Positions 13,242-42,286 of a stretch of DNA of 43,977 bases are shown here, in pieces (the stretch's first letter is position 1; each line of letters begins with the position of its first letter). The translations under genes were made by a program, and so were the position numbers. Source of the stretch: Prasinococcaceae sp. CCMP 1430 (taxonomy: Eukaryota > Prasinodermophyta > Palmophyllophyceae > Prasinococcales > Prasinococcaceae); contig RQSC01000018.1 in the NCBI GenBank assembly GCA_013416795.1, positions 86,029 to 130,005 on the forward strand, given 5' to 3'. The notes beneath the pieces were generated by a model. The model was not told the DNA's origin. It did not search any database and saw nothing but the letters and a program-made list of their open reading frames with translations.

Positions 13242-14565
13242 GCCGCCCGGGTGGGGGGGGGGCGAAAGGCGCCGCAGGCGAGGCGGGGCGAGGCGAGGCC
13301 AGCTGGAGCGCGCGCGCGGCCTGCGGTCGCGCGGTGGGGAGCGCCCGGCGCGCACCCACAGTACCATAACCATATCCTGTTTGTTTTCTCCCTCGTCGAG
13401 CGCCTGCGCCTGCGCGCCGGTGGCTTGGCGCGGGCGGGCGCCGCGCGGGCGAACCGAACCCCAGCCGAATCCATACAGAGCCTCTGCAGCAGGAAACTGA
13501 CGAAAAGGGGCCGCCCGGTTTCGATGCGGGGTGCCTCATCAGATCAGCGGACGCGCCGCCCCGCAGCGGGCACCGCGGCGCATCATGGATGGGGGCCGCG
13601 CGCTCGGTCGGGGAACGCGCGCATGCAATTCCATATCAAAAAAAAAAAGAGCGCGGACGGTCGCGCGCGCGGCCGCAAAAAAATAAGGACAGCAAAAAAC
13701 CAGCCTCACGCGGTCTTCCAGTGTAGTCACGCAACACAGTACTAACCGCGCCGAATCAGGCTTAACTAGCAGGGATCGGACGTGTCCTGGTGCTTTCCTG
13801 ATCGTATGAAGGCTGGATGGCAGCGGAGCGAAAATGTCGGTATATGAATGTGTCGTTTCAGTACTTCCGATTGATACGAGCGTGGGGAGCGACTCGTCGC
13901 GGGGCGAGCATCTGGCTTACTGCTGTACCTCCCCGAGTCTGCGCGTCCCGGCGATGGCGGGCGGCTGGCCCCTTCCGCCCGCCTTGGGATGCCGTCGGGC
14001 CGGCCAGCGGCCGCGCCCCGGCCGCGGCCGACGGTCGGGGAACGCCCCGGGCGGACGTCGCCCCCCCCCCCGCCCCCCCTTCCCCCTGTGCGCGCTCGCG
14101 CTCGCTCGTGCACGTCTGGCGCCCCCGGGGAAGGCGGGCCGCTCGCTCGCTCGCGCCGTACGAACACGAGCGCGAACGCGCGCTCGCCCGCGCCCCCCCC
14201 TCCCCCCCTCCCATCTCTTTGAACGAGGACTCATCTCCGATGGAAAAAAAGAATGGCCGTGTCGACTCGAATCATCTCAGACACGCGCTTGTGCCCACGG
14301 GCGACGCAGACACAGCTGAACGTCCCCCGACGCGACGTTTTTTTTTGAAAATACAACACACACAGGGTCACACACACGCCATCCTTTTTCTGTCGGCGTG
14401 CAGAGGCAGGGCCTGCGCGCGCGCCGCCGCCGGCAGGCAGCTTCGCAGGCCGAGTTTTTTTTATTTTTATTTTTTTATTTTTTTGGGCGATGAAAAGGGC
14501 GTCCAGCAATGCGGTTTGACGTCGGTTTTGGCGTGCGCGGAAAAAAAAACGCAAAAAGGAAGGCC
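13242..14565. other. intergenic region, low complexity
   Basis: I see no protein gene here. It contains A-rich tracts (13636-13650, 13676-13700), C-runs around 14060-14090 and 14185-14210, and a T/A-rich patch at about 14455-14485. A few AT-richer words near 13780-13880 break the GC background. The open frames on both strands are low-complexity Arg/Pro/Ala text. Confidence 0.5.
14541..14557 (-). terminator. poly-T Pol III terminators of the tRNA gene
   Basis: Read on the minus strand, the tRNA 3' end (14566) is followed after 8 bases by T5 (14557-14553) and then by T9 (14549-14541), the standard RNA polymerase III stop signal. Confidence 0.75.
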
Positions 14566-14708
14566 TGTCCCACGCGGGGCTCGAACCCGCGGCTTGGAGC
14601 TTTTTCGAACGAATCGCAAAGATTTCGGGGTCATAAGGCTCCCAGTGAAGGACCCGGATGCGGCGAGAAAACGATCGGGGTCGCTCTGACCAACTGAGTT
14701 AGTGGGAC
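14566..14708 (-). tRNA. tRNA-Ile(UAU), apparently with two introns
   Basis: Both ends of a tRNA are clear: GTCCCAC (14708-14702) pairs with GTGGGAC (14573-14567), discriminator A at 14566. The A-box is TAACTCAGTTGG and the B-box GGTTCGAGCCC, in T-arm GCGGG/CCCGC. The exons that fold canonically are 14708-14684, 14644-14633 and 14602-14566 (74 nt). They give D-stem ACTC/GAGT, anticodon stem GGAGC/GCTCC, loop CTTATAA and anticodon TAT, so isoleucine. This requires a 30-nt intron (14603-14632) next to the anticodon, close to the usual 37/38 site, and a 39-nt intron (14645-14683) in the 3' D-stem strand. The second contains a GACCC/GGGTC helix. Exact cut sites are uncertain by 1-2 nt. A degenerate tRNA with an insertion is the alternative. 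Confidence 0.8.
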
Positions 14709-38728: not shown

Positions 38729-39902
<1,174 letters not shown>

Positions 39903-39928
39903 NGGGGCGAGCCGGCCGCGCCGCCGCG

Positions 39929-42286
39929 ATGGAGGCGGCGCTCCTGCGGGCGATCGACGCCGCCGGCGACGGAGGCGGGGTCGACTCGCAGGCCTTCGCC
40001 GCCGCCGGCGGCTACGCGCACGGCGATGTGCTCGGCCTCGTGCGCTCGCTCGTCGCCGCGGAGATGGTGGCTGCGACGGACGTCGAGATCGTCACTTGGG
40101 GCCTCACCGCCGAGGGGCAGGAGTTCGTGGAAAAGGGCTCCGCGGTGGCGCGCGTGCACGCGGGCGAGCTCTACGAGTCGCTGCACCGCGCGGCCGCGAG
40201 CGTTGACGCCAGCTCCAATCCAGCGACTGCGCGCGTGCCGCTCGCTGGGGGCGCAGCAGCGGCGGTCCTGCGTGGCGTCACCGCTCGCTCTGCAGGACTG
40301 GCCCGCGCGTTCCCTGCCGCGGTGGTCACCGACGAGGACGGGAGCGAAACTGCGATTGCGCTGCGATCGCGCTGCTTCTCTGCGCGCACAACCGCGCTGG
40401 TGGTCGACGCCTCCACCGGCGAGCACGTGGAGTGCACCCCTGGCGGTGCCGCCGAGCAAGGAGACGGAGGCGACGGCGTCGACGACGGCAGCAGCGCCTT
40501 CCTGTGCGGCACGCCGAGTTACATGCATGGGTACGTCGAGTGCGCCGGACGCCGCTTCGCGATAACCGCAGGTGGTAGCAGCTCCGCCGACGCAGGGGCG
40601 GCGGCACGCGCGGCACCGTCAGAGGCGGGCGCCCGCGACATCGGAGGGTCTCTGCGGGCGAGAGGCGTGGAGACGGTCGCAGTGGAGCTCGCCGGCACGG
40701 CCGGGGACGACCACAGCGCAGACGCCGCGACGATCGGCGGCGTCGCAGCAGCAGAGGCCACGCCCAGAGACCCCTTCCTCTCCACCAGGAGGGGCAAATC
40801 GCAGCACCCTTTCGCGCTCGAGAGCCTCGACGAGGACGAGGAGCTGGCGGAGCTGCCCGCAAGCGCCCAGGGCGCGCGCGGGGGCGGGGGCGCGAGCGCG
40901 CGCAAGCTGCTCTACATAAACGCGACCGCCTTGGCGGCCGATGCCGCTCTTGCAGCACCGCCCAAGGCGGTGGAGAACTACGAGCTGACCCGCCCGATGG
41001 TGGAGCAGCTCGTCGAGGCGGCGGACGGCGCGACGGGGTGCCTTTCCGTGGCGGTCGACACGACGCCCGAGCTCGTGTGGCAAAGCCCGTGGGACGGCGA
41101 CGCGGACGCGCTGGCGGAGTACCTCGTCTCACTGTACACGTACGCCTCGTACATCCTCTCGCGCGACGCGGGCGTTGGTATTTCGCTCGTGCACCTGCGC
41201 GTGAACAAGAACGTCAACACGTCGCCGTACGCGGGTTCGTGCGAGACGCTGGGGGCGACGGGGATGGGCGCGCTGCTCGAGCAGGTCGTGCCAGTGTGGG
41301 ATGAGCGCCGCGCCAAGGACAAGTCCCTGCCCGACGCGCACCTCGTGCAGCTTGTCACCGGGCGCATGAAGGACGGGGGCAACTGCGGCGGGCGAGCAAC
41401 CACCTACGTTGGCACGCTCGTGCCGCCCAAAGAGTCCACGCCCATGAACGCCGTGTGCATGCAGAAGCGCCGCAGCGTGGTGAGCCTGACGTCGTCGTGG
41501 GCGGGGCTGCCGCAGCTTCACGACGGGACTGGCGGCGGGGCGACGGCCACCACCGCGTTGGAGGAGGCGCGCGCGGGCACTGACGGAGATGCTAGTGAGC
41601 TTTCTGGGGAGCTCTATAGCACGGTCGGCGACTGGGACGCCATGGTGGTTGTGCACGAGCTTCTGCACAATCTCGGCTCCGCGCACACGCACGACTGCAC
41701 CTTCTACGACCCGCCGCTCGACTTGTGCGGCGCATCGTCGTCCGGGGGGGAGTGCGGCGCAAAGGAGTGCTCCACAGGCAGCATTATGAGCTACTGCCAC
41801 CTGTGCGGCCTGAACTCGGTGCGCCTCGGCCTGCACCCGCGCGTGGCGAGCGTCGTGCGGCGCGCGCTCGCTCCGGGTGGCGTGGGCTGCGCCGCATGTG
41901 TAGGGCCACCCATGGGCTCGCTGGAGCTACTGGACGCGGCCGAGCTCGACGGCGCGCATCACTCGGATGACGCATTCGTTGGCTTCACGTTGGCCGGCGA
42001 CCATCAAGCGCCCACAACAAATACAAGCGCACCTGCAAGCCCCGCGCCGGCCCCGGCCCCGGCCCCTACACCGGCGCCGCGCAGTGACGCGGCCGATCCG
42101 ACCGACACGCTCGGGTGGGAGCTGGAGGTTAGCGCCGCCGCGCCGCTGCCCGCCCCCTCTCCGCAATTGGAGTTGGAGGTGAGCGCGGCAGCAGCGCCGG
42201 TGCCTGCCCCCTCTCCGGTCGGGAGCGACGCCACCACCACCACTCACGCGGGCGTCCTCCTGGCCCGCGCGTGGCTCGTCGGCTGA
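39929..42286 (+). CDS. zinc metalloprotease frame headed by a PheRS-alpha N-terminal domain
   Basis: One uninterrupted frame of 785 aa from ATG 39929. Residues 1-72 (MEAALLRAIDAAGDGGGVDSQ, YAHGDVLGLVRSLVAAEMV, WGLTAEGQEFVEKGS) match the N-terminal winged-helix region of cytosolic phenylalanyl-tRNA synthetase alpha; no synthetase core follows. From about residue 100 it reads as a metalloprotease pro-region, and from about 330 (KLLYINATALAAD) as a reprolysin-like catalytic domain. It has HELLHNLGSAH (zinc ligands His576, His580, His586; base Glu577) and a Met-turn in GSIMSYCHLCG. The tail is Pro/Ala-rich with two LEVSAAAPxPAPSP repeats and ends weakly hydrophobic. No signal peptide is seen, although such proteases are normally secreted. 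The start lies 26 bases after the N at 39903. Real fusion, mis-join, or two genes sharing a frame by unseen splicing are all possible. Confidence 0.72.
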   Translation: MEAALLRAIDAAGDGGGVDSQAFAAAGGYAHGDVLGLVRSLVAAEMVAATDVEIVTWGLTAEGQEFVEKGSAVARVHAGELYESLHRAAASVDASSNPATARVPLAGGAAAAVLRGVTARSAGLARAFPAAVVTDEDGSETAIALRSRCFSARTTALVVDASTGEHVECTPGGAAEQGDGGDGVDDGSSAFLCGTPSYMHGYVECAGRRFAITAGGSSSADAGAAARAAPSEAGARDIGGSLRARGVETVAVELAGTAGDDHSADAATIGGVAAAEATPRDPFLSTRRGKSQHPFALESLDEDEELAELPASAQGARGGGGASARKLLYINATALAADAALAAPPKAVENYELTRPMVEQLVEAADGATGCLSVAVDTTPELVWQSPWDGDADALAEYLVSLYTYASYILSRDAGVGISLVHLRVNKNVNTSPYAGSCETLGATGMGALLEQVVPVWDERRAKDKSLPDAHLVQLVTGRMKDGGNCGGRATTYVGTLVPPKESTPMNAVCMQKRRSVVSLTSSWAGLPQLHDGTGGGATATTALEEARAGTDGDASELSGELYSTVGDWDAMVVVHELLHNLGSAHTHDCTFYDPPLDLCGASSSGGECGAKECSTGSIMSYCHLCGLNSVRLGLHPRVASVVRRALAPGGVGCAACVGPPMGSLELLDAAELDGAHHSDDAFVGFTLAGDHQAPTTNTSAPASPAPAPAPAPTPAPRSDAADPTDTLGWELEVSAAAPLPAPSPQLELEVSAAAAPVPAPSPVGSDATTTTHAGVLLARAWLVG

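Follow-up and report, generated by a model that had tools for sequence, protein, structure and literature searches.

A nuclear tRNA-Ile(UAU) gene with a putative ectopic intron in the D-arm, and ectopic introns predicted in other tRNA genes of a Prasinodermophyta genome

The stretch of DNA analysed here, in the following called the window (43,977 nucleotides; GC content 69.8%), contains a tRNA-Ile(UAU) gene on the minus strand, at 14566-14708, that is interrupted at two places. Judged from its sequence, this is very probably a functional nuclear gene in which the insert in the D-arm is an ectopic intron of the bulge-helix-bulge (BHB) type that would be cut by the Sen endonuclease as part of a genome-wide habit. 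The assembly around the window is eukaryotic and comprises 24.5 Mb in 145 contigs. The parts of the gene are given in Table 1.

Table 1. Parts of the predicted tRNA-Ile(UAU) gene in the window
Feature	Position	Strand	Remarks
Exon 1	14684..14708	-	tRNA positions 1-24: acceptor 5' strand, D-stem 5' strand, D-loop, 22-24
Ectopic 39-nt intron at 24/25	14645..14683	-	Hairpin GACCC/GGGTC at +2/-7
Exon 2	14633..14644	-	U25, G26, anticodon stem 27-31, loop 32-36, anticodon UAU
30-nt anticodon intron	14603..14632	-	36/37 register, A37 kept (37/38 register: 14602-14631)
Exon 3	14566..14602	-	tRNA positions 37-73: anticodon 3' strand, variable loop, T-arm, acceptor 3' strand, A73
T-runs T5 and T9, Pol III terminator-like, downstream of the tRNA gene	14541..14557	-	

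A canonical tRNA-Ile(UAU) of 74 nt is obtained only after removal of both inserts, the one of 39 nt in the D-stem (24/25) and the one of 30 nt next to the anticodon; in this respect the claim of an earlier note on the same DNA is borne out. The minimum-energy fold of the joined exons is a full cloverleaf with 21 stem pairs (-31.8 kcal/mol), in which the acceptor stem is GUCCCAC/GUGGGAC, the D-stem ACUC/GAGU, the anticodon stem GGAGC/GCUCC, and the T-stem GCGGG/CCCGC. Position 25 is a C in the unspliced form, and taking out the 39-nt insert restores the A10-U25 pair that had been predicted. Folding of the insert also confirmed that it carries a helix of its own; GACCC/GGGTC is followed by a C.C mismatch and then by GAT/ATC, and beyond this hairpin there is one unpaired nucleotide on the 5' side and a 6-nt tail on the 3' side. 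The insert alone forms a stable hairpin (-10.9 kcal/mol), and this would be in line with a mature tRNA that retains it as an enlarged D-arm or extra arm and has only the anticodon intron spliced out. Such retention is nevertheless highly improbable, since the 3' strand of the D-stem would be split between 24 and 25 with an A10-C25 mismatch left behind, and since other ectopic introns of this genome lie in the T-loop, the anticodon stem, and the acceptor/D junction, where staying would disrupt the tRNA. Removal of the insert as an intron is the preferred reading.

For the intron beside the anticodon the proposed length of 30 nt stands, while its position had to be corrected: it is found at 36/37 if A37 is kept, or at 37/38 with G37, and the sequence fits both. 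A tRNA reading AUA is expected to have A37 (t6A37). The A-box-like and B-box-like sequences of the gene are both uninterrupted, the latter (GGTTCGAGCCC) being intact in exon 3, and CCA is not encoded. The exon order is normal, the 3' half not being found upstream of the 5' half, so the gene is not of the permuted type. A 5S rRNA gene (Rfam, 82 bits) is located at 13698-13817 on the same (minus) strand, about 750 bp downstream of the tRNA gene, and together the two make up a small Pol III neighbourhood. Elsewhere in the window (39044-42286, plus strand) there is a long ORF with a weak match to reprolysin (M12) metallopeptidases and a sub-threshold match to the PheRS DNA-binding domain.

At usual thresholds, and with introns allowed, ARAGORN gave no tRNA match in the window; the only match of Rfam there at gathering scores was the 5S rRNA gene, the tRNA gene being missed. 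Standard tRNA finders can thus miss genes of this kind. With a much relaxed threshold ARAGORN returned 213 matches in the window, including overlapping ones of wrong structure at the tRNA locus. A parser was written that permits introns at any tRNA position, and at this locus it returned the identical 39-nt and 30-nt introns with a score of 30.9, which was reached by none of 400 null sequences (maxima of 25.0 among 200 dinucleotide shuffles and 21.6 among 200 random pieces of the window).

Insertions of the same kind were sought in other tRNA genes of the assembly, and ectopic introns were found in seven other species. Candidate genes were collected by patterns of a B-box followed by a T-run, by a tRNA family search (Cys), and by two later searches for 5' halves. 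The survey is partial and only some of the pattern matches were examined; 19 nuclear tRNA species were rebuilt. Introns outside 37/38 occur in eight of these 19 species and number 14 in total. Twelve of them have lengths of 27-39 nt, and the remaining two, both in the T-loop, measure 10 and 14 nt. Arg(ACG), Gly(CCC), Arg(CCG), Leu(CAG), Ser(CGA), Pro(UGG), Ser(GCU), and Ser(AGA) are intronless, while Cys(GCA), Gln(CUG), and Ser(UGA) have a 37/38 intron only, of 17, 19, and 26 nt, respectively.

Besides Ile(UAU), a single ectopic intron is found in Leu(AAG) at 30/31, in Arg(UCG) in the variable loop (plus one at 37/38), and in Glu(CUC) in the D-arm. The Glu(CUC) intron may be placed anywhere from 12/13 to 15/16 and was tested for BHB structure at 12/13 only. 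Its two loci (L047 on C11 and L053 on C64) are identical over the compared stretch, and a short telomere-like CCCTAACCCTAAAC stands behind both. Ile(AAU) has ectopic introns at 41/42 and 59/60, Pro(CGG) at 9/10 and 28/29, Tyr(GUA) at 21/22, 27/28, and 59/60, and Pro(AGG) probably at 9/10, 21/22, and 32/33; the last three species have a 37/38 intron as well. The Tyr(GUA) gene, with its four introns, is present in two identical copies about 2.4 kb apart (L108 and L109, C49). With the introns removed, all 21 standard pairs of the cloverleaf are present in both Ile(AAU) and Tyr(GUA), but folding without constraints gives them other minimum-energy structures.

The parser was run on 44 loci, five of which were left without a row by the T-run and length filter, and the other 39 gave 40 rows. 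Sixteen of the 40 rows score above 26. Two Pro loci, L054 (22.1) and L061 (21.3), have scores within the null range and were kept because they are homologous to each other and to Pro(UGG). For L054 the hand reconstruction adopted is not the solution that the parser gave, and the anticodon AGG and the four introns of this locus make up the least certain of the reconstructions. A locus on C62 (L052, score 25.8) was dropped as low-complexity, and 20 further rows of the 24 that are not above 26 look like chance. At L089 (C71:130650-131100) there may be a tRNA-Val(CAC) gene whose D-arm has two introns and whose anticodon arm is intact; its score of 20.7 is within the null range, and it was kept as a candidate and not counted.

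Pro(UGG) is intronless while other Pro genes carry introns, which is a sign that introns were gained or lost between paralogues. Directly behind the Pro(CGG) gene there is a truncated tandem Pro relic (L100, C101:153600-155300, minus strand, about 690-780) that has kept intron-like 9/10 and 21/22 pieces and is without anticodon and T-arms. No mobile family was detected by an exact 14-mer of the 9/10 Pro intron (TTTGATTTTGACGA), which is found at two places in the genome, both of them Pro loci.

The partial survey gave no nuclear gene for Ala, Asn, Asp, His, Lys, Met, Phe, Thr, or Trp and no accepted one for Val. Such genes would escape it if they had T-loop introns, other T-arm sequences, distant terminators, or perhaps a permuted order, and their absence suggests that further genes may be permuted or interrupted in the T-arm. 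Organelle-like tRNA clusters reappear on different contigs (C41, C98, C84, and C136), and the mitochondrial contig C41 mixes mitochondrial with GC-richer DNA; taken together this suggests a chimeric assembly. On C41, inverted-repeat pairs of 1.07 and 1.3 kb enclose about 17.0 kb and 8.3 kb, which is close to single-copy regions of 17,079 and 8,738 derived from published repeat coordinates (PMC3873408, excerpt), but the 14.4-kb repeat published there was not seen in C41. In a nad4 search the best named match among the 120 of 1574 listed was Chloroparvula japonica (59%), with no Prasinoderma named among them; the mitochondrial nad4 points to green plants in general.

The T-loop intron in Ile(AAU) and Tyr(GUA) splits the B-box region. 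An upstream profile was made for 19 genes, one of which has only 29 nt upstream, and the A+T content is 0.58-0.67 at 21-50 nt upstream of the tRNA genes compared to 0.28-0.42 at 51-140 nt. This peak resembles the upstream TATA-type promoters that have been described for C. merolae (PMC3978253, excerpt). The 6-mer ATTTTG, which was chosen post hoc, is found within 150 nt upstream of 7 of the 19 genes and in about 1% of random pieces of the window.

The earlier note had held that another intact tRNA-Ile(UAU) gene would speak against the gene in the window. A genome search with the spliced tRNA, which detects close copies only, found no second copy, the sole match being the window locus. This bears on the alternative that the D-arm insertion broke a once intact tRNA-Ile(UAU) gene and left a pseudogene. 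According to a review, a eukaryotic tRNA gene with an insertion in the D- or T-arm is mostly just one among many synonymous copies and is regarded as a pseudogene (PMC4090602, excerpt), and the partial survey leaves room for a second Ile(UAU) gene. A pseudogene is, however, quite unlikely: all 21 stem pairs are intact after removal of the insert, the genome search gave no other close copy, the insert carries a helix that is typical of BHB introns, and inserts of the same kind are found in Tyr(GUA), Ile(AAU), and Glu(CUC), among others. A functional gene with a spliced insert is the reading followed below.

The archaeal splicing endonuclease reads a BHB motif in which the intron helix h' closes between nucleotides +2 and -7, and in which the helix H has four pairs, formed by exon nucleotides -3 to -6 and intron nucleotides -6 to -3. 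For the test of this motif the intron boundaries were derived from the cloverleaf, some of them manually, which applies most of all to Pro(AGG). A first set comprised seven non-redundant ectopic introns. The variable-loop intron of Arg(UCG) was left out because of its ambiguous register, and of the two homologous 9/10 introns in Pro genes only one was used, the other being redundant. The summed h' run of the seven introns at +2/-7 is 30, compared to a null mean of 4.5 and a null maximum of 18 (0 of 5000), and this cell is the highest of the 6x11 offset grid. At the BHB place H forms 20 of 28 pairs, the highest value of 36 offsets, and 12 of 5000 shuffles reach it. For the five introns found later, in Ile(AAU) and Tyr(GUA), the best register allowed by the cloverleaf was taken, with the same freedom in the data and in the null. 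Here H forms 19 of 20 pairs (four helices complete and one with three of four pairs; 0 of 5000 shuffles), and in the best-H registers the h' runs at +2/-7 are short (0 to 2). The two intron sets thus lean on different halves of the motif. Across the intron set, the splice points set from the cloverleaf match the archaeal-type BHB geometry.

A BHB search had been suggested for the window gene as well, and its D-arm intron has an h' run of five pairs exactly at the expected +2/-7 (reached by 75 of 20000 shuffles), with two of the four pairs of H. Together with the ectopic introns of the seven other species and the single genomic match, this intron helix supports the earlier reading of two introns with the ectopic one at 24/25. 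In the minimum-energy fold of the precursor the BHB is replaced by a GAG/TTC variant of 3 bp, and the acceptor/D region is disturbed. The anticodon intron fits the motif poorly, with one or two of the four H pairs depending on the register, and in the Glu(CUC) intron neither half fits well (no h' at +2/-7, two of four H pairs).

The genome encodes Sen2-, Sen34-, and Sen54-like proteins. The best PDB match of an ORF on C32 is a chain named Sen34, and that of an ORF on C120 is a chain named Sen2. A Sen54 N-terminal domain is found on C89, while a match to Sen15 on C112 is weak. When part of the Sen34-like ORF was used as a protein query, no match passed the cut-off. It is conceivable that some activity different from Sen excises the ectopic introns, or that their recognition ignores the BHB. 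The incomplete H in the window and the lack of h' in Glu(CUC) would fit this, as would the many Guillardia nucleomorph introns from which a defined BHB is absent (PMC3978253, excerpt). The BHB statistics over the whole intron set and the Sen-like proteins argue against it, and it is considered unlikely.

Cleavage by Sen is therefore preferred here, and the processing would probably proceed as follows. Pol III would transcribe the Ile(UAU) gene into a precursor containing two introns, and the tRNA splicing endonuclease (Sen2/Sen34/Sen54, perhaps with Sen15) would cut the 24/25 intron at a relaxed BHB, where the intron hairpin closes at +2/-7 beside a short exon-intron helix. The exons would then be ligated, and the anticodon intron would be removed too, in an order that may be the one given here. 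The window gene would be one case of a genome-wide habit, with BHB introns at many tRNA positions.

Archaeal multi-intron pre-tRNAs display BHB geometry and have introns at many positions. The gene described here differs from these in being a eukaryotic nuclear gene with a poly-T terminator and no encoded CCA, in a genome with eukaryotic Sen2/Sen34/Sen54-like subunits. Among eukaryotes, in which tRNA genes are very seldom interrupted at such a place, ectopic BHB introns in tRNA genes are already known from Cyanidioschyzon; the lineage and the extent found here are, as far as seen, new. The Ile(UAU) gene of C. merolae is interrupted at 12/13, 37/38, and 53/54, and the anticodon intron leaves last, after the D- and T-arm introns (PMC9602550, excerpt). 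An Ile(UAU) gene with D-arm and anticodon introns is thus common to C. merolae and the window (PMC9602550, excerpt), and the two genomes also share several introns per gene and BHB-type junctions at many positions (PMC9602550 and PMC3978253, excerpts). Unlike its C. merolae counterpart, the window gene has its introns at 24/25 and at 36/37 or 37/38 and has no T-arm intron. C. merolae is a red alga, while the genome here looks green, and C. merolae also has permuted tRNA genes; the exon order of the window gene itself is normal.

The tRNA genes of the Guillardia nucleomorph carry inserts of 3-24 nt at non-canonical positions, and their excision has been shown by RT-PCR (PMC4090602, excerpt). 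Introns in the D-, anticodon-, and T-arms, with several per gene, are common to these genes and those described here (PMC4090602, excerpt). However, many of the 3-24-nt nucleomorph inserts lack a defined BHB (PMC3978253, excerpt), while the ectopic introns here are mostly longer, as given above, and most of them have BHB helices and are found in an ordinary nuclear genome. Cyanidioschyzon and the nucleomorphs, which the earlier note had listed as lineages with such introns, are both confirmed by the literature, but the list omitted a 27/28 intron in the permuted tRNA-Ser(TGA) of Ostreococcus lucimarinus, the one such intron in a table of permuted genes (PMC3978253, excerpt).

Prasinophytes likewise have disrupted nuclear tRNA genes. 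In Ostreococcus and Micromonas these are permuted, mostly at 37/38, with almost no ectopic introns (PMC3978253, excerpt), so the disruption there is by circular permutation and not, as here, by ectopic introns in genes of normal order. Permuted tRNA genes have also been reported for Auxenochlorella (PMC12636532, excerpt). The available text of a 2014 review describes green algae as having almost no ectopic introns and regards Cyanidioschyzon as the only one to have permuted tRNAs together with various intron-containing ones (PMC3978253). In the available text of the P. coloniale genome paper, tRNA is named once in the main text, for plastid genes used in a tree (PMC7455551). Among the matches listed from the open literature, none mentions, in its title or the opening of its abstract, ectopic tRNA introns spread over the nuclear genome of a green alga.

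The splicing endonuclease of eukaryotes is commonly portrayed as a ruler fixed to position 37/38, and the Prasinodermophyta are reported to branch before the split between Chlorophyta and Streptophyta. The occurrence of D-arm and anticodon introns in Ile(UAU) of both this green genome and Cyanidioschyzon suggests that position-free splicing may be old and not a red-algal oddity. It is accordingly a possible, though tentative, interpretation that a Prasinodermophyta genome keeps archaeal-style BHB introns through much of its tRNA set, handled by Sen, and that position-free splicing may be old in the Archaeplastida. Such genes are also a warning that standard tRNA finders can overlook them. With a green genome that has both ectopic introns and recognisable Sen2, Sen34, and Sen54, the choice between ancestral freedom and two origins becomes testable, and so does the question of which change in a Sen subunit permits freedom of position.
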